Shown here: one piece after another, positions 7,041 through 52,493 of the stretch
How the letters are laid out: every line of letters starts with the position of its first letter
How positions within the stretch are numbered: position 1 is the first letter of the stretch
NCBI GenBank assembly: GCA_903813345.2
Contig: CAIIXF020000010.1
Span: 3,031,169 to 3,095,168, forward strand
DNA length: 64,000 bases
Source: Owenia fusiformis
Taxonomy: Eukaryota; Annelida; Polychaeta; Sabellida; Oweniidae
Reading direction: 5' to 3'
The notes under the pieces: generated by a model
Database searches by the model: none
Seen by the model: only the letters and a program-made list of their open reading frames with translations
Told to the model about the DNA's origin: nothing
Translations under genes and position numbers: made by a program

Positions 7041-8454
7041 ATCGCACTTTGAAAAAGTGCTATATTGTCGTCGTCTTGTGCTGTTGGGCGTGCGGGCGGG
7101 CGGGACATAAACTAAATCTTGTCATCAAATTTCCAGGATAACTGCTTACCTGTTCAACTTGAAATTTTTACAGATGCAAGAGCAGACTAGTACCAAGATC
7201 TGATTAGGTTAAGGGCATGCTGGGTAAACTATGTGGCGGCCATTTTGAATTTTTCAACAAATCTTGTCATCAAAATTCCAGGAAAAACACTTATCCGTTC
7301 AACTTGAAATTTTTACAGATGCAAGAGCAGACTATTGCCAAGATCTGATTAGGTTTTGGGTATGCTGGCTGAATTACATGGTTGCCATTTTGAATTTTTG
7401 AATTTGGCGGCCATTTTGAATTTTTCAACTTGCTCCAAATTGACCAAATTTTTTTTTTAAAAACATCTACAAGTTCTCAGAAGTTCAAATCTGACCTTAG
7501 ATTTCAGATTTGACCTTTCATTTACCTTCAGTGACCTTGAAAAGGTCAAAAAAGTTGATTTTCTAAATTGATATTTTGGATTTAAATTTAGGTCAGCTTA
7601 ATTACAAAACACCTACTGAGGTCTGAAAAAGTGAAATTTTAAAGGTCAAAAGTCAAGGTCATTAAACTAGGTCACAAATGATGTTATCCAAGTTTCTCAA
7701 AGTTTGAGACTACAAATCAATTCTTGTCATCAAAATTCCAAGAAAACGGCTAACCTGTTCAACTTGAAATTTTTACACATGCAATAGCAGACTAGTGCCA
7801 AGATCTGATTAGGTTAAGGGCATGCTGGGTAAACTACGTGGTGGCCATTTTGAATTTTTCAACAAATCTTGTCATCAAAATTCCAGGAAAACCACTTATC
7901 CGTTCAACTTGAAATTTTTACAGATGCAAGAACAGACTATTGCCAAGATCTGATTAGGTTTTGGGTATGCTGGCTGAATTACATGGTGGCCATTTTGAAT
8001 TTTTCAATTTGGCGGCCATTTTGAATTTTTCAACTTGCTCCAAATTGACCAAATTTTTTTTTTAAAAACATCTACAAGTTCACAGAAGTTCAAATCTGAC
8101 CTTAGATTTCAGATATGACCTTCAGTGGCCTTGAAAAGGTCAAAAATTTGATTTTCTAAATTGATATTTTGGATTTAAATTTAGGTCAGCTAATTACAAA
8201 AGACCTACTGAGGTCTGAAAAAGAAAATTTTCAAGGTCGAAGGTCATCAAATTAGGTCACAAACAATGTTATCTAAATTTTCCCAAAGTTCAAGACTACA
8301 AATAAATTCTTGTCATCAAAATTGCAGGAAAACTGCTAACCTTGTCAACTTGAAATGTTTACAGATGGAAGAGCAGACTAGTGCCAAGGTCTGATTAGGT
8401 TTTGGCCATGCTGGGTAAATTGCATGGTGGCCAGTTTGCTCTTCAAAGTGCGAT
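7041..8454. mobile_element. Hairpin-ended array element, family 1
   Basis: The left end is a hairpin (GCACTTT, short loop, AAAGTGC; 7044-7060). The right end is a single inverted copy of the outer stem, CAAAGTGCGAT (8444-8454). After the hairpin come tattgtcgtcgtc and a G/C-rich gggcgggcggg tract. The core is a tandem duplication of a ~585-bp unit (starting about 7117 and 7715) plus a partial third unit (about 8305). Each unit opens with cttgtcatcaaa and includes ggccattttgaatttttcaa and several tgacctt motifs. No protein frame is conserved between units, so it is non-autonomous. No clear target duplication was found. Confidence 0.75.
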
Positions 8455-9231
8455 ATTTATCACTGTGTGTCTTGTTCTTTACTGTTTTGATTCACCTGTA
8501 GTCATAAATAATATGTCCACTTGGGCGCACATACACATAAAACTTAACACAATTTTTTTTGAGTTTGGATGAAGGTGATTAAGAATGCTTTAACGTCTAA
8601 GATGTCTTAAAGTTTCAGTAAAAGAAATTAGCATTTTTGAATTCAACCGTTGAACTTTCTGTTACAGGATCATAGATATGTCTAGCCAGTGAAGAGTTAT
8701 TTTGTATAAACTGATATTGTGCATTAACACTATTGCTTTGAAAATGAAAAAAGTATGTTTAATTGAGCGATTGGCTTCAAAAATATTTTATCTTGAGGTC
8801 ATCATATATTTTATACTTTCACATGGATGTAAATGCAACATGAAAAATACAGTATCTTATTCATGGCTTGTTATGTATCCTCATACTTTAGGTGATCAAT
8901 CATTTTCTCCAAAATGTTATTTTCAAATACATGTAATTGCCATCAGTTTTTGTCAAGAACTTGTGTTAACTGTTTCTCATATGATATTTCCAAGATCATA
9001 TCTCATAATTTTCAAACTGGTCCAAAATTGGCAGCATTCTTCTAATGCTGAAATATTCACTCTTTCAAAGTGTTCTCTCCTTTCTTCCTTGCAATGTTGG
9101 ATATTCTCCCATATTGAGATGGATTACAATGCACATACCATAATATACCCTATTTCAAGAGATCACAGGCTAAATCCTTTATGTTATTTGAAAAACAGAA
9201 AGATTTGCTAAGTATCAAAATGGAAATACAT

Positions 9232-10005
9232 TATCATAGAAATGCCCTGGCTTAACATAGAGATGTCCTGGCTTAACATAGAAATACCCTGGTTTAACAT
9301 GGAGATGCTCTGGCTTAACATAGAAATGCCCTGGCTTAATATGGAGATGCTCTGGCTTAACATAGAAATGCCCTGGCTTAACATGGAGATGCTCTGGCTT
9401 AACATAGAAATGCCCTGGCTTAACATGGAGATGCTCTGGCTTAACATAGAGATGTCCTGGCTTAACATAGAAATGCCCTGGCTTAACATAAAAATGCCCT
9501 GGCTTAACATGGGGATGCTCTGGCTTAACATAGAGATGTCCTGGCTTAACATAGAAATGCCCTGGCTTAACATGGAGATGCTCTGGCTTAACATAGAAAT
9601 GCCCTGGCTTAACATGGAGATGCTCTGGCTTAACATAGAAATGCCCTGGCTTAACATGGAGATGCTCTGGCTTAACATAGAGATGTCCTGGCTTAACATA
9701 GAAATGCCCTGGCTTAACATAGAAATGCCCTGGCTTAACATGGAGATGCTCTGGCTTAACATAGAGATGTCCTGGCTTAACATAGAAATGCCCTGGCTTA
9801 ACATGGAGATGCTCTGGCTTAACATAGAAATGCCCTGGCTTAACATGGAGATGCTCTGGCTTAACATAAAGGTGTCCTGGCTTAACATGGAGATGCTCTG
9901 GCTTAACATTGAGGTGCTCTGGCTTAACATGGAGATGCTCTGGCTTAACATGGAGATGTCCTGACTTTAGTGACTTAACATGGAGATGTCCTGACTTATC
10001 ATGAT
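9232..10005. repeat. 21-bp minisatellite with higher-order structure (~36 copies)
   Basis: Tandem units of the form ctggcttaacatagaaatgc (21 bp including the next base) run for about 770 bp. Three main variants (gaaatgccc, gagatgctc, gagatgtcc) occur in an ordered pattern rather than at random, suggesting duplication of multi-unit blocks. Because 21 is divisible by three and the unit lacks stops in several frames, long reading frames appear on both strands. These are by-products of the repeat, not genes. One irregular unit occurs near 9966. Confidence 0.93.
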
Positions 10006-20644: not shown

Positions 20645-20653
20645 GCATTACTC
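20645..20653. other. 9-bp target-site duplication (left copy)
   Basis: GCATTACTC lies directly outside the left terminal inverted repeat and is repeated exactly at 25554-25562 outside the right one. Confidence 0.9.
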
Positions 20654-22739: not shown

Positions 22740-24890
22740 TTCTTCAGAATAACAGAAAACGAGGTTTACAAGGCAGTTAAGCAATTAAAGAACAACAAGA
22801 GTTCGGGTTTTAACGGCATTAGCTATGAAATGATTAAAGCGTCATACTCAGTTTTAAATAATGTTATCTGTAAAATGTTTAACATATTACTGAGCAAAAC
22901 AGTTTTCCCTGAAAAATGGAATATTTCATCAATCGTTACGTTATTTAAGAAAGGAACGACGAAAGACCCTGGAAATTACAGAGGTATTTTTATTTCTGAT
23001 TGCTTTGGCAAACTATTTTCAATAATTTTGTATAATAGACTTTACGCCTTTGTACATGACAGAAAAATAATATCGGAAAATCAAGCCGGTTTCACAAAGA
23101 AAGCACGAACAACTGACCACATGTTCATAATACGAACCCTCGTGGATAAATATGTACTAAGTGAAAAAGGGAATATATATATGTGTTTTGTTGATTTGAG
23201 GAAAGCTTTCGATACGGTATGGCATGATGGATTATTTTTGAAACTTTTGCAATCAGGTGTAAACGGTTTATTCTATAAAATGATAAAACATATATATTCA
23301 CAATCAAAAGCAAGAGTCAGACTAGATAATGAGGGTTTATTTACCAATGAATTTGACTGTAACAAGGGAATAAAACAGGGGGACCCCCTAAGTCCTCTTC
23401 TATTTAATATATATATAAATGACATTATTAAAACATTAGATCTCAAAACAGACCCATTATTAAATAATAAGCGAATTGGAAGCCTCCTTTTTGCTGATGA
23501 CTTAGTAATTATCGCATCCTCAAAAGATGAAATGCAAACCAAATTGGACAAATTAGAAAAATACTGTGAAGAATGGCACTTAAATATCAACACTGATAAA
23601 ACCAAAATTATGGTAATGAATAAAAATGGTAGACTTATTGATAATCACTTCTTTATAGGAAATTACAAAATAGAATCTGTTTCACGATACATTTACCTGG
23701 GAATGGAATTAAGCATAAGTGGGTCAATGAGACCTGCAGCCCAGCATATCAAAGACAAAGCTGAAAAGGCAAAATTTAAATTATTAAGTCTAATTTCTAA
23801 TGGTAATATGAAACCATCATTATGCTTAAAACTATTTGATCAACTCATAAAGCCCATATGCCTCTATGGATCTGATATATGGGGTACGGGTATCTTAAAC
23901 TCGAGTAAAATTAAAAAAGACCCACAATGGGCATTAGAAAAGGGATATGATGGAATAACATTTGAATCTCTTCATATATCATTTATGAAATCGATACTCG
24001 GTGTTAACAGAAAGGCCAGTAATGACGCTACACGAGGCGATTTAGGTAGGTTTCCACTATTTATTTCTTTGTTTTATCAACAAATGAAATATCTTAATCA
24101 TATTAACAATAAAGGAACCGACTCGCTTCTACGTGAAGCCCTTGAGGTAAATAAACAACTGACAGATATGAATAAACAATCATGGCTCACGCACATCAAT
24201 GATGTACTTAAATATATTTACAATGGTACTTCACCAAACTATTTAAACTTAAAACCAAGAGAAATTAAGAAATTACTGGAAAATAGATACATACAATTTT
24301 GGGAAACTAAAATAAAATCAAATAATGGTAAATTGAGGTTTTATAAGATAATAAAAGCAAAATGGAACAAGGAACCCTACTTGGATTTAATCAAAAATGA
24401 AATAGACAGAAATAACTTGACAAAGCTAAGAATTAGCGCACATAAATTAGAAATCGAAACAGGTCGTTACACAAAACCAATTACCCCTATTGAAGAAAGA
24501 AAATGTTTAATGTGTAACAAGAAAACCGGTTCAGAATGTCATTACCTATTAGAATGCAATAAGTTAAAAGATGTTCGGTCAAGTTACATGGATAAAATAA
24601 AAAAACACTGTCAAAATTTAGAAAACATGAATAACGTGGAACATAAATTAATGTTTCTATTTAATTCAGAGGGAATAATATTAAATATACTAGCAAAATA
24701 TATATCTAATATTTTTATCGAGAGAGAAAAAAACACGAAATGCATCCAATAAAATCTTGCAATGATCAAGCACCCTTTGATTAGTTAATATACTATATAG
24801 ATAATTAGTTAAGCTTTTTCATTTTTTTCTGTTTAAGCTGTACACTTTGCCCAAATGTGGGATACAAGTATAATAAAGCTCATAATAATA
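22740..24890 (+). mobile_element. 5'-truncated non-LTR retrotransposon (LINE)
   Basis: The element begins abruptly inside the reverse-transcriptase frame, just after an in-frame stop near 22737. It ends after a short 3'UTR with AATAAA (24872-24877) and a short ATA-rich tail. The upstream endonuclease and ORF1 regions are absent, as expected from incomplete reverse transcription. It is nested in the 4.9-kb TIR element. The family was not assigned. Confidence 0.8.
22830..24752 (+). CDS. Reverse transcriptase of a non-LTR retrotransposon
   Basis: This 640-codon frame has no internal stop or frameshift and copies RNA into DNA during target-primed integration. Visible reverse-transcriptase motifs include the region FKKGTTKDPGNYRGI (about 39-53), motif A FVDLRKAFDTV with catalytic Asp (about 120-130), motif B GIKQGDPLSPLLFNIY (about 180-195) and motif C FADD (221-224), the catalytic pair with Phe in place of the commoner Tyr. 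A C-terminal Cys/His cluster lies at 559-576 (C-x2-C, then CH-x4-C). The frame stays open upstream to about 22740 (reading ITENEVYKAVKQLKNNKSSG), so the ATG at 22830 is not the original start. An uninterrupted frame suggests recent insertion, but without the endonuclease the copy is presumably immobile. Confidence 0.9.
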   Translation: MIKASYSVLNNVICKMFNILLSKTVFPEKWNISSIVTLFKKGTTKDPGNYRGIFISDCFGKLFSIILYNRLYAFVHDRKIISENQAGFTKKARTTDHMFIIRTLVDKYVLSEKGNIYMCFVDLRKAFDTVWHDGLFLKLLQSGVNGLFYKMIKHIYSQSKARVRLDNEGLFTNEFDCNKGIKQGDPLSPLLFNIYINDIIKTLDLKTDPLLNNKRIGSLLFADDLVIIASSKDEMQTKLDKLEKYCEEWHLNINTDKTKIMVMNKNGRLIDNHFFIGNYKIESVSRYIYLGMELSISGSMRPAAQHIKDKAEKAKFKLLSLISNGNMKPSLCLKLFDQLIKPICLYGSDIWGTGILNSSKIKKDPQWALEKGYDGITFESLHISFMKSILGVNRKASNDATRGDLGRFPLFISLFYQQMKYLNHINNKGTDSLLREALEVNKQLTDMNKQSWLTHINDVLKYIYNGTSPNYLNLKPREIKKLLENRYIQFWETKIKSNNGKLRFYKIIKAKWNKEPYLDLIKNEIDRNNLTKLRISAHKLEIETGRYTKPITPIEERKCLMCNKKTGSECHYLLECNKLKDVRSSYMDKIKKHCQNLENMNNVEHKLMFLFNSEGIILNILAKYISNIFIEREKNTKCIQ

Positions 24891-27768: not shown

Positions 27769-30481
27769 GTAGGTAGATTTCATGAGATAGATAATGCAAA
27801 ATTGCTTTAAATTTTAAAAATCATTTAAAACAATGTTCAGTTAAAAAAAATTCAAAATATGTTCCTTGGCTTGTTTGTTCTGAATTATTTAAACAGTACA
27901 AAATCATGTTCTGTTTTATTTGGCTCTTCAATGTGTTTATGTGTTTATGATGACATACAAGCATTTCCTGGTGTGTTAAAAGTTCACTTCTTGAATTTGT
28001 TTACAAGAATGTGAAAAACTGATACCCATTAGTTTGACTTTGATTCTTTACAAGAAACTATGTACACGACACTGCATGTGTGAGACTGTACATGTATGTA
28101 TATTTGAGACTATATGTAAATGTGAGTAGTTATAATTTATCATAATAAACATGAGATGTACATAAGGGAGTGTATGCCTCAGACAATGTAAGCATTCAAC
28201 AGACCCCAAAAATGTTTTGTGTTAATTTTCTTTTTTCGAGTTGTTCAGAAATTATAATTCTTAGTAATTCTGAGCTTGAATTGAAATATATTGGCCTTTG
28301 GGTATGGTCAAGAAAATGTGTTAGGTCATTTTACTGAAAACTGGTTAATATAGGAAAATACATTAGAGCTTTATTAGAGTCTAAATATAGGACATTGTTA
28401 ATAACTGAAATATATTAAAGGTCATCCTGAAGCAAGATTAATTACATAGGGGAATAAGAAGTAAAGGCCAGTATGATGCCTTACAAAAATTTCAGAAAAC
28501 AATTTCAGTCAAATTCCATTGAGATGTTCCTGTTTGCAATCTACTGTAACTTGAGTTAATTTGATGCTATTTTATGTTGCAGTTTTTTTTTTGATACATT
28601 GCGGCTATTTGATTTGGTTTATTTTCTAATTTGTCAGAATCAGACCATGTTTTATATTGACCACATTCTTGCATTTTTCACTAAATAAAGCTGCATCTTA
28701 TTATTAAAGTGTGTTTGTGAGTTTAACGTTTATTTACTATTACCTTTCTAAATCATTTCAGAAGACTTATTATTAAAGCTGATCAGATAATTTTATACAT
28801 GTATAAATGCCAAAAAACAGACATATAAATAACTGTAAAATTTCTCTTGAATCCAAACCTTTTAATGAGACCTGATTACCTCTTGTGTGTAATAACTAAT
28901 TGTCTACCCCCCCCCCTCCTCATTGTATTTGGGGAAGGGAAATTCATAATAGGATAGGGTGTATGCATGACTAGACACTCTATTGTTATATTGAAACTCT
29001 GGGGTGTTTAGTCTGCCTTGTTAACTCGAAAGAGAATCTGATTAAGCAATGTTTAACAAGATCAGAGAATTCTATAGAGATTTTCAAGTATCCTGAAGGG
29101 ACCCAGTTCCTGTTAAAATTGTCACTTTTGTCTGCCTATTCTGATGAATGGTCTTTTTCTATGATGCTTAGCTTAAATATTCAGGGATAGATGTGGGAAT
29201 ACATATATATTTTGAAAATTTTTAGATTTTTTATCATAAATGTAAAATTTGGGAGAAAATGGACCCCGGACCCTTAAAATAGGCCATTCTACTTAAAAAG
29301 GCCAATTCCTCATAAAAACGTTGAAATCATTATGATAAAATTTTGCAATTTCACAAGACTTTGTAATTTTGGATCTAACGTTTTCCCAATGTCTTTCACT
29401 CAATCTATTTTAACTCAATTAAGTTTTGGAAAATCAGTCTGATCAAATTTGGATTTTTATATAACTTTGAGACCCCGGAATATGTAAACTGTGAATTTGT
29501 ATCTAATTAAGAAAAAACAATGGGAGAACAATACATATTATATACATCTCCTGAAGTAGAAGCCTTATAGTCAGATATTGTAATCTTCATAATATAACAT
29601 AAAAGCTCAACATAACATGATAAGAGCTCAGGTGTCGCCTTTCATTAACATGTCTGTATTTATATATTAATAGAAACTCCATACATTTTTTTCCTCAGGT
29701 TCTGCCACCTGAATGTCACATTAACCCTGTATAATTGCAGAATCCTCTTTTCTCTCCGAGACTGCATCTATAAATATGGGAAGATCATCTATACTTCTTA
29801 TACAAGGAGCTTGATAATTAATGTAATAATTGATGTATCTTGGAGTACTGTTAACCATATTTTTGAGGGTAGTGTAAGACATACCCTAAACCTAAAGGGT
29901 ACTGAATGATAATCACTTTGAAAATTCAGAATCTAGTACATCTAGACTCTTTGAAATCGTAACAGAAAATATTCTATAAACCCAAGTTTTTTCTGTCTTT
30001 ATCTGCGTAGATTCAGTCAAAGATTAACAGTTTTCTTTTGAGACTTGATTACACCCAACATGCATCTGTTTTTCTGTTTCATTGTTTTGAAGAAGTATTT
30101 GCACAAACCTTTGTTGAATATATTGCCATTTTACATGCAGCCATTCTGTTAAAACCAAATTGATTCACTTTGATTTCTTGCTCTCTGTCAGGCCATGTCA
30201 GTCAACAATATATCATAGCGTCATTATTTAAGATTAGACAATTTTGAAATTGCTTGAATAATTTTTATTCAAATAATAACAATTGCTTGAATAATTTTAT
30301 TCAGGTCATTTTAAAATTGCCAAATCTTGCATGGGGTTGACAGTGCTTCATTTGGGAGAATCTAAGAAGGGGTGAATAACAAAAACATTATATTCAGTAG
30401 TATTGATATTTACTCCTACATAGAATGATTAATTCACTATTTCCTGAGTTTGAAGACAAGGATCATGTCAGGCTACATTAT

Positions 30482-32933
30482 TATGTCACCACCAAAAGTG
30501 GTGACATATTGTTATGGTCTCCGTTTTTTTTTATGTCACCACCAAAAGTGGTGACATATTGTTATGGTCTCCGTTTTTTTGCGACGGCGGTTGGTGGTTG
30601 GCGGTTGGTGGTTGGCGTCCGGCGTCTGGCGGTTGGCGTCCGGCGTCTGTAACAATTTCTTACAACTTCCTATAACTTAACAAATACTGTTTAGACTGAC
30701 TTCAATTTTTTTCTAAATCATCAACATGTTCTCAGAAGTTCAAATCTGACTTTAGATTTGACATTTGACCTTCAATGACCTTCTCAAGGTCAAAAAGGTC
30801 TTTTTTCAACTTGCTTCACATTGACTAAATTTTTTTTCAAAATCATCTACATGTTCTCAGAAATTCAAATCTGACTTTAGATTTGACATTTGACCTTCAA
30901 ATCTGACTTTAGATTTGACATTTGACCTTCAATGACCTTCTCAAGGTCAAAAAAGGTCAAAAAGGTCTGTTTTCAACTTGCTTCAAATTGACTAAATTTT
31001 TTTTTTCAAAATCATCTACGTGTTCTCAGAAATTCAAATCTGACTTAAGATTTGACATTTGACCTTCAATGACCTTCTCAAGGTCAAAAAAGGTCAAAAA
31101 GGTCTGTTTTCAACTTGCTTCAAATTGACTAAATTTTTTTTTCAAAATCATCTACATGTTCTCAGAAATTCAAATCTGACTTTATATTTGACATTTGACC
31201 TTCAATGACCTTCTCAAGGTCAAAAAAGGTCAAAAAGGTCTTTTTTCAACTTGCTTCAAATTGACTAAATTTTTTTTTCAAAATCATCTACGTGTTCTCA
31301 GAAATTCAAATCTGACTTTAGATTTGACTTAAGATTTGACATTTGACCTTCAATGACCTTCTCAAAGTCAAAAAAGGTCAAAAAGGTATTTTTTCAACTT
31401 GCTTCAAATTGACTAAATTTTTTTTTCAAAATCATCTACATGTTCTCAGAAATTCAAATCTGACTTTAGATTTGACATTTGACCTTCAATGACCTTCTCA
31501 AGGTCAAAAAAGGTCAAAAAGGTCTTTTTTCAACTTGCTTCAAATTGACTAAATTTTTTTTTCAAAATCATCTACGTGTTCTCAGAAATTCAAATCTGAC
31601 TTAAGATTTGACATTTGACCTTCAATGACCTTCCTCAAGGTCAAAAAAGGTCAAAAAGGTCTGTTTTCAACTTGCTTCAAATTGACTAAAATTTTTTTTC
31701 AAAATCATCTACATGTTCTCAGAAATTCAAATCTGACTTTAGATTTGAGATTTGACATTTGACCTTCAATGACCTTCTCAAAGTCAAAAAAGGTCTTTTT
31801 TCAACTTGCTTCAAATTGACTAAATTTTTTTTCAAAATCATCTACATGTTCTCAGAAATTCAAATCTGACTTTAGATTTGACATTTGACCTTCAATGACC
31901 TTCTCAATGTCAAAAAAGGTCAAAAAGGTATTTTTTCATCTTGCTTCAAATTGACTAAATTTTTTTTCAAAATCATCTACATGTTCTCAGAAATTCAAAT
32001 ATGACTTTAGATTTGACATTTGACCTTCAATGAACTTCTCAAGGTCAAAAAAGGTCAAAAAGGTCTTTTTTCAACTTGCTTCAAATTGACTAATTTTTTT
32101 TTTCAAAATCATATCATCTACATGCTCTCAGAAATTCAAATCTGACTTTAGATTTGACATTTGACCTTTAATGACCTTCTCAAGGTCAAAAAAGGTCAAA
32201 AAGGTCTGTTTTCAACTTGCTTCAAATTGACTAAAAAAATTTTCAAAATCATCTACGTGTTCTCAGAAATTCAAATCTGACTTTAGATTTGACTTAAGAT
32301 TTGACATTTGACCTTCAATGACCTTCTCAAAGTCAAAAAAGGTCTTTTTTCAACTTGCTTCAAATTGACAAAATTTTTTTTTCAAAATCATCTACATGTT
32401 CTCAGAAATTCAAATCTGACTTTAGATTTGGCATTTCACCTTCAATGACCTTCTCAATGTCAAAAAAGGTCAAAAAGGTATTTTTTCATCTTGCTTCAAA
32501 TTGACTAAATCTTTTTTCAAAATCATCTACATGTTCTCAGAAATTCAAATATGACTTTAGATTTGACTTTAGATTTGACATTTGACCTTCAATGACCTTC
32601 TCAAGGTCAAAAAAGGTCAAAAAGGTCTTTTTTCAACTTGCTTCAAATTGACTAAGTTTTTTTTTCAAAATCATCTACATGTTCTCAGATATTCAAATCT
32701 GACTTTAGATTTGACATTTGACCTTTAATGACCTTCTCAAGGTCAAAAAAGGTCAAAATGGTCTGTTTTCAACTTGCTTCAAATTGACCAATTTTTTTTT
32801 TCAAAATCATCTACATCTTTTCAGAAGTTCAAATTTGACTTTACAAGTTCTCAGAAATTCAAATCTGACTTAAGTTTGAACTCATAATATTCTGAGCAAC
32901 TAGGTGGTGACATTTTGTCATGTTAATGCCTTG
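30482..32933. mobile_element. Hairpin-ended array element, family 2, array-bearing copy
   Basis: The left end is a hairpin (GTCACCAC, loop, GTGGTGAC) followed by atattgttatggtctccg. This ~50-bp head is duplicated in tandem. A ggttggcgtccggcgtctg tract follows. The right end is a single stem copy, GGTGGTGACATTTTGTCATG, then TTAATGCCTTG. The core is a ~137-bp tandem array (see separate entry). Three minimal copies elsewhere (47.2, 50.3 and 51.0 kb) share both ends without the array, which fixes the termini. No protein is encoded. Confidence 0.85.
30720..32880. repeat. ~137-bp tandem array (about 15 units) inside family 2 element
   Basis: Each unit carries tctcagaaattcaaatctga, then atttgacatttgaccttcaa, tgaccttctcaaggtcaaaa, cttgcttcaaattgactaaa, a T-run, and aaaatcatctacatgttc. 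Unit length varies (about 125-165 bp) through small internal duplications of the tgactttagatt and aggtcaaaa motifs. The inverted tgacctt/aaggtca pairs could form short hairpins in each unit. Confidence 0.93.
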
Positions 32934-34184: not shown

Positions 34185-35322
34185 TTATCCCATCGAACGA
34201 AGTTCGGAGGGATATAGGGAACGCCTCCGTCCGTCCGTCCGTACGTACGTACGTACGTACGTACGTCCGTCCGTCCGTACGTACGTCCGTCCGTACGTAC
34301 GTACGGCCGTCCGTCCGGGCAATAACTCAAATACCGTTTGCCCGATTTTATTCATATTTTGTATACATATACCCTATGGGGGTAGAAGTTCTGCTCGAAA
34401 GCCGATTTTCAAAATGGCCGCTTATTTAAAAATGGCGGCCATTTTAGTGCCGATTTTACAGTAATTTAGGTGCAATATGTAAAACTGTAATAGCAATATG
34501 TTTTAAATGTAAAAAAAATTACATAGGACATTAATAAAGCAAGAAATGTAGATATTAAAAAAGCACATGGCAGCCATATTGAAAAATGGCGGCCTTTCTC
34601 GTTATTTTACGATTTTTGCTGTAACTCGAAAAGTAGTGGAGCGATTTTGTTCATATTTGGTATGTGAATACTATAAGCATGGCACACTGTCTAATGATAC
34701 TTTTGGTAGAAGGCGGCCATTTTGAAAAATGGCGGACATTTTGAAAAATGGCCGCCATTTTAACTTATTTTACTAAAACTCGAAAAGTAGTGTGGCGATT
34801 TTGTTCATATTTGGTATGTGAATACGTATAGGCATGGCACACTGTCTAATGACACTTTTGGTAGAGGGCGGTCATTTTTCAAAATGGCCGCCATTTTAAC
34901 GTATTTTACTATAACTCGAAAAGTAGTGGAGCGATTTTGTTCATATTTGGTATGTGAATACTGTAAGCATGGCACACTGTCTAATGACACTTTTGGTAGA
35001 AGGTGGCCATTTTGAAAAATGGCGGACATTTTGAAAAATGGCTGCCATTTTAACCTTTTTTACTATAACTTGAAAAGTAGTGGAGCGATTTTGTTCATAT
35101 TTGGTACGTGAATACGTATAAGCATGGCACACTGTCTAATGACACTTTTGGTAGAAGGCGGACATTTTTCAAAATGGCCACCATTTTAACGTATTTTACT
35201 ATAACTCGAAAAGTAGTAGAGCGATTTTGTTCATATTTGGTATGTGAATATTATAAGCATGGCACACTGTCTAATGACACTTTTGGTAGAAGGTGCCCCT
35301 TTTGAAAAATGTTCGATGGGAT
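34185..35322. mobile_element. Hairpin-ended array element, family 3, copy 1
   Basis: The left end is ATCCCATCGAAC, a short loop and GTTCGGAGGGAT (34187-34213). The right end is a single inverted copy, CGATGGGAT (35314-35322). After the head come (gtcc)n/(gtac)n simple repeats (34228-34318), then ataactcaaata..ttcatatttt. The core has about five 134-155 bp units (34620-35310), each with aactcgaaaagtagtggagc, ttcatatttggta and aatggcggccatttt-type palindromes. Longer and shorter units alternate. The short reading frames in both directions here are products of the repeat. Confidence 0.8.
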
Positions 35323-37984
35323 TCGCTACGCTTTGGCGTTGCCGTTGTTCTGGTTGAAATCAATTTTAAATTTTACTTTGAAATACTGTCACCCTGGGTA
35401 AATAAAAATGATTCATCAAATATTGATTAGTACTTTTCCTCGAAATATGAAGATAGATCTGCAATAAAACAATCACCGTGACATTACCAGAATGACAAAC
35501 TCGTTAAAATAGATTGTGTTAGAAATATTTGGCGCCAGGTAGCTCTTGCATCGAAGCAATGATGAAATCATAACATTTTTGCATTCCTATCCCAAGGGAT
35601 TGTGAATTATTTACCATATGTTGGAATACAAGGTATTACATTCTAAAGTCTGGCGAACTTTACTTCTATTCAGTTATCTTTCATATCAACAGGAAACTGA
35701 GGGAAACGCTAATTCTGTTGCACTTTGGAAAGGATTATTTACGAGCTCTCTACCTGTAGAAGTAGAAGCAATTGAGACAATAGTATTATACCTGATCAAT
35801 ATACTGAATTACTCTTACCAATTAGTAACAATACAAAAACTCTTACTAATTAGGGAGAAAACAGGAAAATAGTGCACTCTCTTTGTCTCTATTGGGGAAG
35901 GGTACATTGCAGTTTAGTGTAAAATGTGTAATGATGGGCAGAGTGCAAAAAATTGTGTATTGGTGAAAAAGTTAGATAGACCCATTTCTGAAAAGCTATA
36001 CCCTGCATGCATAGTGTAGTTACAGACAAAGCTCTCTTTTAAGAAGCAAAGTCGAAAAAATGCAAAGGATAGAAAATTGTATGACCCACCTCTAATCCTC
36101 AAAGCACTATCACAAACACAAGAGAAGTAAAATGTGTAATTTATAGCATGTATTGCTCTTACGAGATTGTATTAGTAGTATTTAGAGGTGCAGCATAACC
36201 CAGACTGAGTTTCATAACATGATCATTTCCCATGCATTATGCCACTTTCTCAACATGATTTTTTCTATATAATTTGAATGAAGTCATATTTATTCTTGCA
36301 TTTCTAAGTAATTTCAAATATGGGCAGTTTGTCTGGTTGTTTTAGTCCATGCTTTTTCACATAATTTTGTATTTTAAAACATAAGCCACCATGACATTTT
36401 GAAAGATATGTAATTCTAGAATATGATGCAAACCAGCAAAGGTACATGTGCACATGTTCCCAAACATATTTTGAAGGTGTATTATTTGTAAGGTTATGAA
36501 GCATGTAGTACAGTTAGGTGCATTACTACAAGAAAACATGTTTGCTATCTCCCTAGTAATGAAGCAGATGAACGATGCATCCACTGGAGGTTTTTAAAAA
36601 GAGGCTTGTATATCGATATACTTGAAAATAAGAAAACGTGTGGCTGAGAAAATGAAAATGTGGTAGCTGAGTAGAAATTAGCTCATATATTGTATTTGAT
36701 TCAGGGTTCAAAACTTACAGTTGTCTAACTGCCAAAGTCAAGACTTTTCACTCTTGGCAATGAACTTAAAAAATAAGTTGCCAAATGGGCAATAGACTGA
36801 ATGCCAATATATCTTAAATTGGGCAATCATGGTTATTTTTATAATCTGTGTATTGTTTTGTTCTGTGCTTCAGACTGTTCAGTAAGATTTCAGGAACTTC
36901 TTGATTGATGAGAAATTTAGTTCACACAAGTGTGGAAGTATTTACCATGGGATTTGTATTTGTTTTTGTTTGAAACATGGTCTAACAGGAAAGAGGTTAA
37001 TTAAGCCAAGCTATATACATGATGTAGGAAATACACTACATATGTGTAACTGACCTTCTTAGACATTTGTTGTGTTCATCGTGATGCAATGATTATATCT
37101 CAGGTTTTCGTCATGAAATTGTGGATGAAGGATTTTGGTGCAACATTTTAGGATTTTTTTTTTAAATTTGGGGATTTTTGACTTTCTGGGGATAAAATCT
37201 TGGAATAATTCATGTTACTGATTTCAGTATAGTGAGAGCCCTGAACATTATTGTTCTATTTTGATTTTAAGCAGACTCTCTGTTATTTATTCCATTCCTT
37301 ATTTCTTGGGAGAGCATGGCATTCCATAATGCCATAACATATTAACATACATATCTGTTGTTTGAGAAGTTCATGCTACCATACAGTGTACTGTTCGACA
37401 GCAAAATTCCCATTTTACCTATATTGACTCAGGAAGTCCTAATTTGGTCAAACTATCCCCAATCTTCATGGTTTTCCAAATTCTTAGATAGGCGCAAATA
37501 TATTTTTATTAGGTGCATATAGATATTTAATTGGGTGCAAGGTGATTTTCAATTTCTAACTCACTATACTAATTTGTTTTCATAGTAAATAGACCAGAAA
37601 TAGAGATTTCATAACCCCACATCATCCTAATATAAAATAAAGCATATAGATGGATTTTTAAATTAACATCAGATTGAGAAAAAATGCTGAGAGATATTTA
37701 GAGCAAGGTTAAAATGTGAAATTAGCATTTTGAAAGCTGGTTTCCCTATTCATATCAATATAGTCTATGAGGTACTTAAAAGAAACACATGGCCCTGCAA
37801 TCTGGAATGTGGAATGTATATTTTCATGACCAAATGTTCAAGGTAAGGGGTGGATCAACAATTTGCCTTTTTGGTAATTGGTTGATGCTAATCTGTAAAA
37901 TATTGTAGTAAGTGATGACTGTAGGGTAGACAGTACACAAATTATTACTAACAATAAAGGTATAAATGGGTAAAGAGTAATATT

Positions 37985-39736: not shown

Positions 39737-40972
39737 AAGGATGCTACCTCAGTTCATGATACGATATACTCCATATTACGCCTACAACATTCAGACAATG
39801 TTTTACATATCTTAAACAGATCTGACAAGATATGAGCCAGATAATTAGTTGTAAAGAATATGTGTAAAGGATATAATGCTGTGTGATCAGATGAATCTTC
39901 ATTACACAGTCTTTAAGAAAATATGATATGACATGAGGTTGCTTTGACACGCTGAAATAACCGAAATATGACAAACAGCTAGATTAGGTGTAAAAAATGT
40001 ATAAAGGATCTAATTTTGTGAAATCTGAAATTTTATGAGGGATATTGAAGAAATAGAAAAGTAAGTCCGTATCCAGTGATTTTTCTCTCATATTGGTGAG
40101 ATAATATCTAATTATTGACAGTTTCTGAAGTAGTATCTCAGTTGGAGTGCTTATATTTACATGTCAAAGTAGGGATATCATGTTTTCAAGTCCCACGGTT
40201 CTTACAATTTCCTTCTATGTTACATCCAAACATTCAATTCGCCAACTCATGAATCTACCCTGACTCCATATCAGCTAGCCATGGTACCTTTCCTCTGACT
40301 GTGACGGATGAGTTTGCTTGTAAAAGATTCTATCCTCAAAAGGACTTAATGATCTAAAATGGATCTTTCATGGGCTTTTGGGGGGTTTGAAAAAGAAATG
40401 AACTTTAAGGATTGTGGTATTCTGGATAGTATATTATATTATGATTTGTAATTTTGAGAGTTAAAACAACATTTCCATCTTTTCAAGGGTAACTCAATGA
40501 TGTTTGACATTTCCAGCAGTTGCAACACGATGACTCATTATTAGGAGACATAGCCATGATCTCATTCTGTATAATATTTGCATATTGTCTCATTTTAGGA
40601 ATGATGGACATATTCAGTACTATAATTAAGTAGCAAGTCATACTCCTATCACACTATCTTTGACTTGTAGTTGTTCAGTTGTACATGTATGGTTTTGTTT
40701 GTTATGTATATCCACATGCATGTCATCTTTATGAACATATTTTTTCAGTTTCTTTCATAAAATTATGAGCGTTTGATTATTATCAGTCATATTAGGCCTG
40801 GGGAGAACCACCTGCATACAGTCTGGAGACATGATTCAAAGTGACACATAAAACATAATGTGTTTACTATGAGCCATGAGGTCACATCTTCCAGTTCATT
40901 TCAGCAATCAGTATTCATGTTTTGACATTCTTTTCCCATTGAGTAACGTTTTCTTCATTCGTGTACTTGCAG

Positions 40973-43900
40973 GAGAAACGGTGATCCACTATGAGGGCGC
41001 CACCGCAACTTTCGACATCCTCATCAACCCACCAATCGCAGTCGTCAAACAGACCCTCAAGGCCGTTCTTGCAATACCTAGCAACCATCGCCATATTGTT
41101 TTTGCTGGGCATGCATTTACCGGCACTGGAGCCTGGATCTTGCAGGATGATGTTTTTAAGTATGAGGATTTCGTCCAGGCTACCAAAGATGGTCAAGTAC
41201 AAAATAATGTTAAACAAAACGGTGGTTCCATGACGATACAGGCTTTTAAAGAAGGAAATTGGAATACTGAGCACTTTGCTAAAACAGAGATCGGAAAGTC
41301 ACTCAAAGTGACTGTGAATGCAGGAGAGACATTGACTGATTTAAGTGGCGTTCTTCAATTAACCGCTTTCATAGGGGACAGTCTTAACCCTTTGGAGGCC
41401 CAAGAGTTGTTAAAATCATCCCAAGTAGTCGGAAACATTCGCTTTAGTAGACCCACCCTCTATATATTCCCAGGCGCAGAGGGGGACTCCTCTATGTTTG
41501 GAATTAGTGGATTCAATTTGCTAATAGATGGTGGCTACAGCAAGAAATCATCATTTTGGGACTTTACACGTCACATTGATAGAGTCGATGCAATTCTCAT
41601 GACTCACATCGGTGCAGATAATTTATTTGGAATAAGCAGCCTAGTACAGAAGAAAACCACTGAAATTGTCCACCCTGAGATTGGATTTATGTACTTTAAT
41701 GCACCGGAAAAAGCCAAACATTCCCCTAATGGTGATAGCCACCCTGAGAATGGTGGCACAATGAAGCCACCGAGCTTACTCGTGAATCTGGTAGAGGAGG
41801 GCAACAGGATCATTGAAAATCTCTCCGTTCTTGGTCAAGCTCCCCACCCTTGTGTCTCAACAGTTGCTGCAGGTCAAATTGAGCCCATTAATCTCTACCA
41901 TAAAGTCGGCCACGGGTCTCTAGACATGTATATTCTCAATCCTCCCAAAGATAGCAAAGAGATGAAAGATTTTTACCAACAGTGGAACAAGCATGTCAAC
42001 CATTTCGCAGTACAGAAATCCGGTATGCCGCTTCCTAATATGCTCTCCATTTGTGCTCTGTTGGTGTGGCGGCCCTCAGCGAAAGCCGATAAAATCACAA
42101 GGCTTCTGTTCCCTGGTGATGCTCCTCAGAATAGAATATTTGAAGGCCTCGATAAATTGAAGAATCTTAATATACTTCAACATCCCCAATGCTGTGACCT
42201 TGATTTGAGTGGCAAAGCTAAAAAGGTTACTGTCGGGAAACCTGCCAGAGCTCCTGTTACCAAATCAGCGCCAGCTAAACGTCCAAGTCCCGACATTAAG
42301 CCTGAACCCAAACAAAATGGAACAAAGCCGATAGGTAGATCTGCCACCAAGCCTCCACAGAAAATAGCCAAAGATGATCATAATAAGAAGAAAGAGCCAG
42401 GAAAGGAAAAGAAAGATAAAAGCAAGTCGCCAGCATCCACCCCAAGTTCAAGCAGTAAGAGCCCTGTAAAGGAGGTTCCAGATCTTGTTCAAGTCAAAAA
42501 GGAAGTTGTCACTCCAGTAGCAGAACCTGTTCCTGTTGCTGAAATAAAACAAGAGGTGGCAACTCCAAATCCTGAAGATTCACTTATGCCAGTGAATGAT
42601 ATGTCTCCGATTGAGCCTGTTAAATTAGTAGATGCTCCTGCAGAATCCACTCCACTTGAGGTAAACAAAGCTCCTACTCCACCCATTGATGATGTCTCTG
42701 AGCCACTACTCAATATTGCCAATAAAGATCCTAGTCCTGAACCAGAGCCAGCAAGAGAACCAACACCCGAACCACCAAAGGAGCCAAGTCCCCCACCTAA
42801 AGCCCCAAGCCCTGAGCCATTAATTGAAACCACACCTACATTACCACCTGTGGAAGGTCTCCTAGATTTCAGCCAACCTTCACAACAGGAGACAACTTCT
42901 GATGAACAACCCATTGATGCTGCCGAAAGCAATAAAGCACCAGAAGTTGAATCTGCTCCCCAGACATCTAATGAATTCCCTGCAGAAACTGCCAAGTCTG
43001 ATCCTGTTCATATTGATTCTCCTGAACCTCTGCCTGACCCAATAGAGTACCCCCCTGTGTCTCAACAAGAGGAGGTCCCGCTTCTTGAACCCACTAAGGA
43101 TCTTGTAGAGGATCCAGAGAAGGATGTAGATACAACTGAACTAGAGGACAGCCTAGAACCTAAACCACCTGGTGCGAGTATTATGACAGATAGTCTCGAG
43201 CCCCAAGAACAAGATGATGAACCTGTCATGGAGGGCATTAAATCTGTATGTGAAGAGCCCGTTAAACTAATGGAAGGTGTCCCTGTTGAAGCTTGCTATC
43301 AAGAAACAAGAGAAAAGACATATGAGGAAATGGGCATTTATGATGATGATGCTGTTGGAACACAACCAACCATTGAGACCAGTCCTAAAGAACCTGAAGT
43401 AGAAAAGATCCAAGAACAGGCACCTGCTCAGACACTTGAGGACCTTGGTATATATGATAATGATGCTGAAGATGAGCCAGTCAGGGAGGCAAGTCCTAAA
43501 GAACCTGAAATTGCTGAAGAAGCAGAAAGTCAAGAACAGGCCCTGGAATCACCAGAACAGCCACCCGCCCAAACCCTTGAGGACCTTGGTATTTATGATA
43601 AAGAACCTGAAATTGCCCAAGAAGCAGAAACACAAAAACAGGCCATGGAAACACCAGAACAGCCAACTGCCCAAACCCTTGAGGACCTTGGTATCTATGA
43701 AAAAGAACCAGAAACACAAGAACAGGCCCTGGAAGCACCAGAAAAGATTCCTGCCCAAACACTTGAGGACCTTGGTGTTTATGATAAAGATCCTGAAATT
43801 GCCCAAGAAGCAGAAACACAAGAACAGGCCATGGAAGCAGCAGAAAAGGCTCCTGCCCAAACACTTGAGGATCTTGGTGTCTATGATGATGAATCACCAG

Positions 43901-45546
43901 CAGTGTCATCAGAACATGAGCCACCATCTGAGGAATCTGGTGTATATGATAATGAAGCAGACCTTGCTGTTGCTGGCCAGGTCCTCAACCAACTGGTAGA
44001 TGTTGCAAGTGATGTGCCTGCTAATGAGGGGCAACTACAAGAAGAACCTCTGCAGTCAAATCCTGAACCCCAACAACCAGATTTTGATTCCAAATCCAGT
44101 GATAAAAAAGCCCTTGAAGATCTAGGTATCTACGATGATGATGCTGATGTCAAGCCTCAAGCTGATGTTGAACCAATTGTTGAACGTGAAGCAAGTCCAG
44201 CAAGTGAACCACATTCCCCAGATGAAGATCTTACACTAGATGAGCCAGAGCATGATGATCAGCTAGCATTTGAACGGGACTCCATTGAGAAAGAGGTGAT
44301 CAAACGTAACCCAGCTCCACCAACTAGCCAATCCATGGAAGTGAATGGTTCATCTGGATCCACCTCACCTGACGGGGCCCCCTTGTTGGATCTTGGTGCC
44401 CCAACTGCCCCTCAACCTGATGTGATCCAGCCTCCCACTGGGAACCTCCTCGACAACTGGGGTGAGCCCCAAGGCCTACCACCAGCTAACCTGTCTGTCT
44501 CTGATGACTCATCACCATATTCTGATTCTGACTCCCCACCATTGACCGAGCAAGATATTACACCTGATCAACCTAACAATCCATTTGATGTCATAAAGGA
44601 TGGTGATGTCAGTGAGCAGATGCCATCAACAAATCCATTTGTTGGTCTAGAAGAGAAAGTACTCCAACCAGATGTTGTACCCCAGTGTAGCTCTAACCCA
44701 TTTGATGATATTCCCACAGGAGGTTCTTTCCCACAACACAATGGGGCCCAAAATGTAGATGACAACAGCTTTGATCCATTAAAGGAATGGGGTGAACCCA
44801 TGAACCTTCCTGCCCCAACCCCTGGTGCTAATACCACAAAGAAATCCTCTGCCCCTAAGAAAGCAGATCCGAAGAAACCTGCAGGCTCAGCTAAGGCAGC
44901 TGATGCCACCAAGAAGCCTATAAAGAAGGAACCAGGTACTGAACCCAAAACCAAACCTGGTAGAAGATCTGAACCAGTCGCAGCTAGGAAACCTGCTGTC
45001 CCAACAGCCCTAAAGAAAGGCAGAGCCTCAACTCCTGGCAATGATGTTCCAACACCTGCTGCCACCAAGAGAGCTGCCACAGCTAAGCCAGCAGCTACTT
45101 CTGCAAGTAAACCAACACCATCTAAGGCAGCTTCCAAGCGCCCTGCAACTGCCCCAGCTAAATCAGCACCAGCAAAATCCCCCTCCTTGGCTCCAGTAAC
45201 TCCTGTCTACATTGACCTAGCGTATGTTCCATCTCACGGAAACCCAAACCACACAGACCTAGATTTCTTCAGACGTGTTCGTGCCAGGCATTACGTCATC
45301 AGTAGTCTAGAACCCAGCACAAAAACCATGGCAGCCATCTTGGATGCTAAGGCAACTTGGGAAAACAAAGAGCTAGAAGTCACAATAATTCCGACATATG
45401 ATAATGATGCATTGCGTCATTGGATGAGCCTAGAAAAGGACAGATTAAGCGAATTAAAGGTAGATTTAGCGCCATCAGCTAGTCGGTGTACAATACAGCT
45501 ACAAGATCATGAAACCAGTTGCGCCGCCTATAGGCTGGAATTCTAA
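40973..45546 (+). CDS. MAP1/Futsch-family microtubule-associated protein, coding exon 3 (residues 64-1587)
   Basis: One large exon after acceptor ttgcag completes the MAP1 protein (1587 aa when joined to exons 1-2). MAP1 proteins bind and stabilise microtubules and are cleaved into heavy and light chains. Residues to about 485 form the conserved head, including YIFPGAEGDSSMFGISGFN and MTHIGADNLFGI (about 273), a degenerate metallo-beta-lactamase-like fold. A Lys-rich stretch (about 490-560) is followed by a Pro/Glu-rich acidic middle, LEDLG[IV]YD repeats (about 846-1120), a clathrin-box-like LLDLG (1201), three NPF motifs (1266, 1284, 1305) and an Ala/Lys/Pro basic region (1351-1472). The C-terminal light-chain domain (1474-1587) starts PVYIDLAYVPSHGN and ends YRLEF*. 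The frame is open upstream of 40973, but that part is intron. It is shorter than vertebrate MAP1A/B and longer than MAP1S. Confidence 0.95.
43318..44160 (+). repeat. Coding repeat in MAP1: LEDLG[IV]YD units
   Basis: Seven copies of an (L/E)(E)(D/E)(L/M)G(I/V)Y(D/E) motif, plus one weaker SGVYDNEA. Each is embedded in about 30-45 residues rich in Glu, Ala, Gln and Pro (APAQTLEDLGIYDxDPE, IAQEAETQEQAMEAPE). Five central copies are nearly identical, indicating recent tandem expansion. The period is irregular. Confidence 0.9.
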
Positions 45547-47200: not shown

Positions 47201-47309
47201 AATGTCACCACAAGTGTTCCATTTTCGTGATGGAAGTTGGTGTCCAGTGTCTGGCATATAGTGACTGTAACAAATGGCAGGTGGTGACATTTTGCATGTT
47301 AATGCCTTG
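47201..47309 (+). mobile_element. Family 2 hairpin element, minimal copy (109 bp)
   Basis: Starts aatgtcaccac and ends ggtggtgacattttgcatg, taatgccttg, the same ends as the 30.5-kb element. Between them lies only the ttggtgtccagtgtctggca tract and ctgtaacaaatggcag. The head hairpin is partly decayed and there is no tandem array. Confidence 0.75.
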
Positions 47310-47645
47310 TATGATTTTTGGCAACTTTTGGCAAATGACTGAGAAATTGTTGCAAAGGAATACCAAAGCTCAATAATTTGAGTCATTTGTCTAAAGTATA
47401 CTACAGGCAAGTTTGGTCATTCGTTGAGTAAAAATGTGAAATGCTGTATTGGGAGGTTTCACATATTGCTAGGTTTATAGTACAATTGCCTTGTGCATAC
47501 AGCTGCTCTTTAGATACTTTGAAATGATAATCTTAATATTGTCTTTAATAGTTTGATAAAGACCTTGTATGCTTAGCTAGATTCGTAGACTGTAGTTTTG
47601 CAAATTATGAGGAACTATGAAATAACTTCTCGTTATCATCATTAA

Positions 47646-47729
47646 GGTAGACGTACTGGTATCCAGAATGCAAACCTGCATGTTGCATTCTGGAGTTCCA
47701 AGCTTATTATTTGTTCTACTCATACTACC
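47646..47729. mobile_element. 84-bp palindromic element flanked by TTAA
   Basis: GGTAG..CTACC ends lie directly inside TTAA on both sides (47642-47645 and 47730-47733). The interior has ccagaatgcaa paired with ttgcattctgg. The TTAA duplication is typical of piggyBac- and Kolobok-mobilised MITEs, so the source family is inferred only. Confidence 0.6.
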
Positions 47730-50311: not shown

Positions 50312-50439
50312 TTATGTCACCACCAGTAAGTGGTGACATATTGGTTTAGTCTCCAACTTTTTATCTGGCCAGTGTTCAGGGTCTAGGCCTATAGCGATTT
50401 GTTGAAGAGGTGGTAATGTTTTGTCATGTTAATGCCTTG
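50312..50439 (+). mobile_element. Family 2 hairpin element, minimal copy (128 bp)
   Basis: The intact head hairpin (gtcaccac..gtggtgac) is followed by atattggtttagtctccaac, a short middle and a tail aggtggtaatgttttgtcat, gttaatgccttg. No array. Confidence 0.8.
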
Positions 50440-51018
50440 TCGGATCTGCTTTGATCTCGTTCTAATTAAGAGCAATTCAGAGAATGTTAAAATCATAGTC
50501 ATATATTGGTTAAATATATGACATTCTACTTCACATGAGGCAAAAAGGATTTTGTGAAAATTACCAATACATTAATCCTGTTTTGATCCTAAAATGTTAG
50601 GATGACATCATAATGAATAGATGGCGCAATTTATTGGACTGATGTATGTATGTGATGTCATGGGCAAGAAAGGCATCTTGTTGTTTCAATGTATACTGCA
50701 CACTGCTGCCATCTTTATATGATGGTGCAATATTCAACATTTGGAGGCATTTACAACCCTTGCAAGCGATAATTCCGTGATACTGGGTTTGTTTACATTA
50801 AAAAATAAGTGCCACTGATTGATCACTTGCAAGGGCTGTTTACATTTAGCTATAAAAAAGCAATGCCTGACACAATTTGATGGACGAGTTGCAAACTGAT
50901 GATACCATGAAAATCATTGTGATTTTTCAAAGAATATTAATTCCTAATGATTGGTTAAACATTTTGTGCTGTAGTACCACAGGGCTATTCAACTTTCAAA
51001 TAGGGTATCATGGTAAAA

Positions 51019-51138
51019 CAAGGCATTAACATTCAGTTTCACTACCTGCCATTTGTATCAGATATCGAATCAGCCAAACACCACCCACAAAAAAAGTTGG
51101 AGACTTAAACTTTGTTGGGACTTTTGGTGGTGACATAA
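51019..51138 (-). mobile_element. Family 2 hairpin element, minimal copy, inverted (120 bp)
   Basis: Read on the minus strand it begins ttatgtcaccaccaaaagt, continues aagtctccaactttttt and ends gaatgttaatgccttg. It lies about 580 bp from the 50.3-kb copy in opposite orientation. The second arm of the head hairpin is mutated. Confidence 0.75.
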
Positions 51139-51325
51139 GTTTATGTGTGAAGTGAATTGTGATGTTTCATTAGGTTATAAGGTAAATGAAGGAACTGAGA
51201 ACCATCAAAGAACTAAAACTGGCTGGCAGGACCGTCACTATTGCTTAGGTTGAAATGTCCAAATTGATCATATAAACATTTCTTGTTTCATTAGGAAACT
51301 AGATGATGAACAAAATATCAGTTAC

Positions 51326-52493
51326 CGAATTCCAATCAATTATACTCATTACTTTGGTTAAAATTGAAAAATTTAGATTTTAGAATTGCGAATTCCTGCA
51401 AAGCAGCCATTTTGAATTTTCTGAGGTACAAATCTGAAAAATAATACCATAATTGTGATCTACTCCAAAATTCCTTCAATTTGAGTATTATATAGCCATA
51501 CGTTGAAGGGATCGAAAAATTATTGCGAAATCGTACATTAGACAGCCATTTTGAATTTTACGAGGCTCGAATCAGAAAAAAGATACAATATTTGCAATCT
51601 ACTCTTAATTGCCTTTCATTTGAGTATAATAAAGCTATACTTCAGAAAGATCTAAAAATTAGCGAAAATTTCTGTTTTCCTGACCCCCCATACACGGCCC
51701 CTGGGGGTCAGGATGAAAAACACTGAATATATGTGAAATAGATATATGTTGCGAATATACTACCAAAATTTCAAACAATAATATTAATTACTTTGGTTTA
51801 GAATGAAAAATGTATGATTTTTGCGAAAAAAAAATGTCATTTTTAAAGCAGTGGCCATCTTGAAAAAATCCACTTTGAATTTTCTGAGGTACAAATCTGA
51901 AAAATATTACCATAATTGTGATCTACTCTAAAATTCCTTCAAATTGAGTATTATATAGCCATACTTTGAAGGGATCGAAAAATTATTGCAAAATCGTACA
52001 TTAGACGGCCATTTTGAATTTTACGAGGCTCGAATCAGAAAAAAGATACAATATTTGCAATCTACTCTTAATTGCCTTTCATTTGAGTATAATAAAGCTA
52101 TACTTCAGAAAGATCTAAAAATTAGCGAAAATTTCTGTTTTCCTGACCCCCCATACACGGCCCCTGGGGGTCAGGATGAAAAACACAGAATATATGTGAA
52201 ATAGATAGATGTTGTGAATATACTACCAAAATTTCAAACAATAATATTAATTACTTTGGTTTAGAATGAAAAATTTATGATTTTTGCAAAAAGTTCCGTC
52301 ATTTTTAAAGCGGCGGCCATCTTGAAAAAATTTTTCAATATACATCTTTCCACCAAATATGAAGAAAATCCGTCAACTAATATTTGAGTTATCTTCCGGA
52401 CGGACAGACGGACGGATGGACGGACGGACTGACGCATGGCATACGGATGGACGGCTTCACTATATCCCTACCGAACTTCGTTCGTTGGGATAA
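51326..52493 (-). mobile_element. Hairpin-ended array element, family 3, copy 2
   Basis: Read on the minus strand it starts with hairpin ATCCCAACGAAC, a short loop and GTTCGGTAGGGAT (52464-52491), then a (gtcc)n-like tract and ataactcaaatattagttg..cttcatatttggt, matching the head of the 34-kb copy. The core is different: two ~463-bp direct repeats (about 51414-51876 and 51877-52339) plus a partial unit. The repeated short frames here (51523-51726 and 51986-52204) are identical in most codons only because the DNA is duplicated. The far end is not identifiable, so the left boundary is approximate. Confidence 0.7.

Follow-up and report, generated by a model that had tools for sequence, protein, structure and literature searches.

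A 64-kb stretch of the genome of the annelid Owenia fusiformis (contig CAIIXF020000010.1, positions 3,031,169 to 3,095,168 of the forward strand; 34.8% G+C; hereafter the window) contains seven copies of three repeat families that, judged from their sequences, are very probably non-autonomous rolling-circle transposons of the Helitron2/Helentron type. Family 1 is represented by F1, family 2 by F2A, F2B, F2C and F2D, and family 3 by F3A and F3B. The anatomy of the ends, the lack of target duplication, a dispensable core and a monomer shared between families can all be read directly in the window. Six of the copies are fully delimited, and for F3B the 3' limit is a candidate only. Tandem repeats were located with Tandem Repeats Finder (TRF), hairpins were evaluated by DNA folding against 200 shuffles each, and sequence matches were obtained with BLAST; the end sequences of the three families are ATCGCACTTTGAA, ATGTCACCACC and ATCCCATCGAAC / ATCCCAACGAAC. 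The literature consulted comprises PMC7492417, PMC3627910, PMC4067079, PMC11136912, PMC8268682, PMC5139131 and PMC12628747.

Asymmetric ends around an optional core

The copies follow a common plan, in which a 5' hairpin flush with the element end is succeeded by a simple-sequence tract, a tandem core that may be absent, one inverted arm (the asymmetric terminal inverted repeat, ATIR) and a tail (Table 1). The hairpin was folded in five of the seven copies (F1, F2A, F2C, F3A and F3B), and only 0 to 2 of 200 shuffles were equally good, which bears out the original prediction of a hairpin at one end. In F2B and F2D the alignment shows the first 10 nt kept and the second stem arm decayed. With the boundaries used, all seven copies start with AT. 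The longest exact inverted matches between the two ends are 14 nt in F1 (when the T at 7040 is included), 11 nt in F2A and 12 nt in F3A. The right arm sits 17-25 bp inside the 3' end (20 bp in F1, F2A and F2C, 19 bp in F2B, ~17 bp in F2D and 25 bp in F3A), and the 3' end reads [C/G]TTG followed by T in all six delimited copies (GTCTTG before the T in F1). The single inverted copy of the stem at the other end had thus been predicted correctly, with the right end set short by the same 17-25 bp. The GC-rich tract predicted to follow the hairpin is clear in F1, F2A, F3A and F3B; in the minimal copies, F2B, F2C and F2D, it has decayed.

The ends of family 2 are readable because its four copies lie in unrelated flanks. 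At the 5' end all four copies (all six pairs) agree over their first 10 nt and the preceding 10 nt have an average identity of 0.43, while at the 3' end the last 14 nt and the next T are identical in all four and the 15 nt beyond average 0.28; this perfect agreement was somewhat favoured by the search, since the copies were partly found through their ends. In the whole window this 3' 15-mer has just four occurrences, one in each copy. As the conserved stretch continues past the right arm, the inverted arm lies inside the element.

In family 2 the three minimal copies consist of the two ends without any array, and F2A has the same ends around ~15 monomers, in agreement with the predicted range of none to 15 core units. 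The array is therefore probably not needed for movement, unless all three minimal copies lost theirs later. CpG decay accounts for 8 of 15, 2 of 15 and 3 of 19 mismatches in the minimal copies, values from gap-rich alignments that are too uneven for use. F2A also has two 5' ends and one 3' end, its first 50 bp being present twice and 100% identical. In plant Helitrons, arrays of multiple 5' ends sharing a single 3' end are attributed to aberrant rolling-circle replication by PMC12628747, which cites Xiong et al.; the double 5' end of F2A resembles these plant arrays, and it may also be explained by simple duplication.

A scan of the window for the strict architecture (a T ahead of a hairpin of 5 bp or more, an inverted arm matching exactly over 11 nt at a distance of 50-3500 bp, and a [C/G]TTGT tail, the tail criterion having been picked after the elements were seen) gave five matches, compared with a mean of 0.33 and a maximum of 3 in 200 dinucleotide shuffles. 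F1 and F3A account for one match each and F2A, with its doubled hairpin, for two; the fifth (1205-1731) falls within the unrelated palindromic fold-back element treated below. When the tail criterion was removed there were 63 matches, many of them inside arrays, and the shuffles averaged 14.98 (maximum 26). A looser scan allowing at most one mismatch returned 13 matches, with the ends of F1, F2A and F3A accounting for six, compared with a mean of 2.98 over 60 shuffles. An earlier exact-arm scan had given 15 matches, mostly inside the F3A array, compared with six in total across 15 shuffles, and its version at one mismatch a long list mostly within arrays.

Table 1. Positions of the seven copies, their parts and other features in the window. 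A slash in an end sequence marks the element boundary; energies are from DNA folding of the hairpins, followed by the number of equally good shuffles.
Feature	Position	Strand	Details
F1, family 1 element	7041..8474	+	1434 bp; TTTTT/ATCGCACTTTGAA ... ATIR ... TGTCTTG/T; no target duplication
F1 5' hairpin	7044..7060	+	GCACTTT-loop-AAAGTGC; fold 7041-7065, -5.6 kcal/mol, 1/200
F1 GTC and GC-rich simple tract	7067..7105	+	read directly; limits approximate
F1 core	7114..8434	+	two ~600-bp composite units and a partial monomer
F1 family-2-type monomer, first copy	7421..7563	+	143 bp, 82.8% to family-2 monomer, E 6.9e-38
F1 family-2-type monomer, second copy	8026..8146	+	up to 86.8% over 121 bp, E 1.5e-38
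F1 3' inverted arm (ATIR)	8442..8454	+	exact inverted match to 7041-7053; then tail 8455-8474
F2A, family 2 full copy	30483..32933	+	2451 bp; ATT/ATGTCACCACC ... ATGCCTTG/T
F2A 5' hairpin	30483-30507	+	-10 kcal/mol, 0/200
F2A first 50 bp, tandemly duplicated	30481..30580	+	TRF period 50, 2.0 copies, 100%
F2A GC-rich simple tract	30581..30650	+	TRF rows 30586-30649
F2A tandem array	30706..32843	+	~15 monomers of ~136 bp; TRF 88% matches over 30896-32843; sequence matches start at 30706; 15-16 landmark repeats
F2A 3' inverted arm (ATIR)	32903..32913	+	11-nt exact inverted match
F2A 3' tail	32914..32933	+	20 bp
F2B, minimal copy	47202..47309	+	108 bp, coreless; tail 19 bp
F2C, minimal copy	50314..50439	+	126 bp, coreless; hairpin intact; tail 20 bp
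F2C 5' hairpin	50314-50339	+	-9.3 kcal/mol, 0/200
F2D, minimal copy	51019..51136	-	118 bp, coreless; hairpin and 3' arm decayed; tail ~17 bp
F3A, family 3 full copy	34187..35347	+	1161 bp; ATT/ATCCCATCGAAC ... GCCGTTG/T
F3A 5' hairpin	34187..34213	+	-6.6 kcal/mol, 2/200
F3A TCCG/TACG microsatellite tract	34223..34317	+	TRF 34226-34317
F3A array	34614..35311	+	290-bp period, 2.4 copies (TRF)
F3A 3' inverted arm (ATIR)	35311..35322	+	12-nt exact; then tail 35323-35347 with short hairpin
F3B, family 3 second copy	51311..52491	-	3' limit is a candidate
F3B 5' hairpin	52491-52464	-	-7.3 kcal/mol, 0/200
F3B array	51407-52331		TRF
F3B candidate decayed 3' end	51311..51339	-	arm 51339-51329, 3/11 mismatches; tail to TTTTG/T
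Palindromic fold-back element	1208-1746		arms ~90% complementary: 1289-1455/1498-1664 and 1208-1293/1661-1746
Reverse transcriptase open reading frame (ORF)	22740-24752		670 aa; RVT_1, E 2.9e-36
MAP1B-type protein ORF	40873-45546		Pfam MBL_MAP1B, E 2.1e-85

Insertion sites and alternative explanations

The dinucleotide TT, which makes up 11.5% of the dinucleotides of the window, precedes six of the seven 5' ends, the exception being F2B with TTTA. A T follows every delimited 3' end, so that five of the six delimited copies have a T on both sides; the T after the 3' end could belong to the element itself. No target-site duplication was found in any of the six, the longest match between flanks being 2 nt in five of them and 3 nt in F2B. 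The combination of symmetric terminal inverted repeats and target duplications, named beforehand as evidence against the asymmetric design, was sought in the copies and not found.

If the copies were ordinary cut-and-paste miniature inverted-repeat transposable elements (MITEs), their shared stem would amount to a short terminal inverted repeat, with the second arm at the left a palindrome arisen by chance. The exact inverted repeat of 11-14 nt between the ends of F1, F2A and F3A is in line with this explanation. However, the last 14 nt of family 2, which are identical in all four copies, lie beyond the right arm, so the repeat is not terminal there, and the internal position of that arm and the absence of target duplication in the delimited copies also argue against cut-and-paste movement. 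In addition, the window contains a palindromic fold-back element (1208-1746) with symmetric ends, CACTGC.../...GCAGTG, and AACAA on either side, which is likely a MITE of the cut-and-paste kind whose target was duplicated over 5 bp; duplication-bearing symmetric elements are therefore recognisable in this window. We consider it very unlikely that the seven copies are MITEs. An origin as canonical Helitron1-type elements is more improbable still: these likewise insert without target duplication, but a canonical Helitron starts with TC, ends with CTRR and inserts between A and T, according to PMC4067079, whereas the copies described here start with AT and the delimited ones end with [C/G]TTG before a T. 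That they are immobile satellite or tandem-repeat loci lying beside palindromes by chance is hardly credible, because, even though tandem repeats make up most of F2A, F3A and F3B according to TRF and F1 is mostly two ~600-bp units, three family 2 copies have both ends in unrelated flanks with no array, and the strict architecture occurs more often than in any of the 200 shuffles.

Arrays shared and unshared between element ends

Each composite unit of F1 consists, in order, of two 145-bp monomers, a linker, one family-2-type monomer and ~154 bp more. The two units (7114-7717 and 7718-8310) have 553 identities in 613 columns, and the partial monomer at 8310-8434 matches the 145-bp monomer at 107 of 145 positions. 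The 143-bp first family-2-type stretch spans just over one family-2 monomer period. The original statement that the families have no obvious sequence in common is wrong for families 1 and 2. Overall, F1 matches the family-2 array at 73-89% over 7421-7570 and 8026-8146, and both stretches have the same orientation relative to the hairpin as in family 2. Outside these two stretches no BLAST match between F1 and F2A was listed, and their ends share nothing by BLAST. The family-2 monomer in F1 starts at a TTTTTCAAC box, which also closes the 145-bp monomer of F1; the box match of 9 nt (E 0.57) is weak alone.

Family 3 gives a different combination. F3A and F3B share approximately their first 140 bp at 73-75% and have unrelated arrays, so that the proposed kinship of the two copies holds for the left end and not for the core. 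F2A has no match to family 3 at E 0.01 or better. The motif GGCCATTTTGAA is confined in the window to F1 (five occurrences), F3A (five) and F3B (one). From the sequence shared and unshared among F1, F2A, F3A and F3B, we found that ends and arrays are combined in different ways. The F3A array has 36-38 identities with the segment beside its own microsatellite tract, where shuffle maxima are 34-35, and its growth from that segment is only marginally supported. At the other end of F3B, described originally as not visible, the segment 51311-51339 is a plausible but weak candidate for a decayed 3' end; it is one of three candidates with at most three mismatches between 48001 and ~52300, and the one just past the array, and is suggestive only.

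Short motifs were also observed in the arrays. AAGGTCA, which we take to be a nuclear-receptor half-site, is dense at 30706-32843 and 7114-8434 (51 in F2A, 10 in F1, none in the other copies and 15 in the rest of the window, copies within one array not being independent); its counts of four within one 136-bp monomer and six within the 604-bp unit were reached in 0 of 1000 shuffles of either. GGCGGCCATTTT is present three times in F1 (7242-8036) and four times in F3A (34411-35187), is absent from F3B and is found nowhere else in the window, and ATGGCGGC is present four times, in F3A only; the motif resembles a YY1 site.

A monomer shared under different ends is not new in kind, since the same array type has been reported across different Helitron elements of Crassostrea gigas (PMC12628747). 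In the oyster elements, related flanks with unrelated arrays form group 2, and the tie between repeat cluster and flank pair is called consistent (PMC7492417). It is conceivable, though we think it unlikely, that the ends act as interchangeable shells and the arrays as swappable cassettes, in which case monomers might pass between unrelated rolling-circle elements at TTTTTCAAC-type boxes and could scatter ready-made regulatory arrays.

Relation to known elements and proposed mechanism

The asymmetric Helitron2/Helentron design put forward by the original prediction matches the definition in PMC3627910 and the plan in PMC7492417, with the reservation that families 1 and 2 lack a significant 3' hairpin. 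In Helitron2 as described by Bao and Jurka (PMC3627910), the 5' ATIR lies 0-2 bp from the 5' end in a hairpin and the 3' ATIR ~20-30 bp from the 3' end; the terminal hairpin, the internal 3' ATIR, the absence of target duplication and the 5' T are alike here, and the copies differ in that there is no protein and the 3' hairpin beats shuffles only in F3A. The 11 oyster elements of PMC7492417 have the order subterminal inverted repeat (subTIR), complementary inverted repeat, microsatellite, array, subTIR and tail, and Cg_HINE of C. gigas, compared by description only, has nearly the same plan as the present copies, with TT sites and no target duplication. Several Cg_HINE microsatellites are GTCY, GTCC or GTCK, the array monomers are mostly 140-180 bp, and some elements have common flanks and not common arrays while others are unrelated in all parts. 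In contrast to Cg_HINE, the 3' palindrome of families 1 and 2 is weak, and these two families carry one monomer under different flanks. HINE-Mo of a mite and Drosophila DINE-1 (PMC4067079) are similar in being gene-less, with subterminal inverted repeats, microsatellites or tandem repeats and unmodified T-rich sites, but the HINE-Mo subTIRs lie 2-4 nt (5') and 38-60 bp (3') from the termini, compared with 0 nt and 17-25 bp here. The bivalve pearl elements CvA, CvE and CvG (named in PMC7492417 and PMC11136912), again compared by description only, have short arrays of ~160-bp repeats between conserved ends. The three families are best regarded as additions to a group already described in oysters.

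A Rep/helicase enzyme, a rolling circle, a pairing switch and array exchange are what we infer beyond the observed features. In the proposed mechanism, a Rep/helicase encoded elsewhere would nick the element end at a T/T site and peel off one strand, start and stop being marked by the double-armed 5' hairpin and the lone arm on the 3' side. The exposed 3' arm would pair with the 5' arm and replace the 5' hairpin, giving a signal for the end of replication, and the strand would then insert between two Ts without duplicating the target. That ATIR pairing undoes the 5' hairpin as a mark of the end of replication is an unproven suggestion of PMC3627910. The core would be cargo, whose arrays grow, shrink, are exchanged or are captured, so that one monomer would come to sit under the differing ends of families 1 and 2.

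Computed energies, which omit the cost of bringing the arms together, favour the ATIR:ATIR duplex over the 5' hairpin in three of the four elements tested, the three with intact arms (F1, -16.9 and -5.6 kcal/mol; F2A, -14.8 and -10.8; F3A, -15.7 and -7.2), which fits the pairing suggested in PMC3627910. Several observations weigh against the rolling-circle assignment and its mechanism, the omitted pairing cost among them. In the decayed F2C the duplex (-8.3 kcal/mol) is weaker than the hairpin (-9.9 kcal/mol). The 3' tail hairpin is matched by 27 of 200 shuffles in F1 and 32 in F2A, compared with 4 in F3A. When the arm is included in the 3' fold, the equally good shuffles number 35 in F1, 33 in F2A, 25 in F3A, 124 in F2B and 86 in F2C out of 200, so that adding the arm brings no gain in families 1 and 2 and leaves F3A less distinct. 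No Rep/helicase, OTU or endonuclease domain was detected in a Pfam scan of nine ORF pieces, hand-picked from the 28 ORFs that reach 110 aa, one of them scanned only in part. Exact-pattern scans of IMG/VR and prokaryote contigs for the hairpins and array monomers returned no match, a result that is expected for animal DNA and uninformative on other animals.

The MAP1B-type and reverse transcriptase ORFs encoded in the window indicate animal-like DNA, and the latter is perhaps a fairly young non-LTR (long terminal repeat) element. Rfam gave no match at gathering score over the whole window, and no hammerhead ribozyme or other curated RNA exceeded the threshold in the arrays. A 37-bp perfect inverted pair (20653-20689/25518-25554), 4.8 kb apart and with GCGC-rich tracts, resembled a further hairpin family, but no such architecture was seen when its surroundings were read. 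At 9231-9967 there are ~35 copies of a 21-bp repeat, across which three frames of 250-281 codons are open, and the minus strand at 61737-63419 contains a 560-aa ORF with a 12-aa repeat (PAVPENAGYPQA), whose sole match, to formin FH1, falls below the cut-off. Two dispersed repeat pairs are also present, 3342-3458/39584-39702 (86.6% identical) and 19407-19615/37985-38183 (83.7% identical).

The further proposal that several lineages are active is not borne out in the window, where no pair of copies is near-identical and the minimal copies have diverged from F2A. The window nevertheless offers a small clean case in which the optional array is visible, with four family 2 copies of which one has ~15 monomers and three have none. 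Families 1-3 would otherwise be open to annotation as unrelated satellites or MITEs. With one monomer found under two unrelated sets of ends, the acquisition of arrays becomes a question that can be tested genome-wide.

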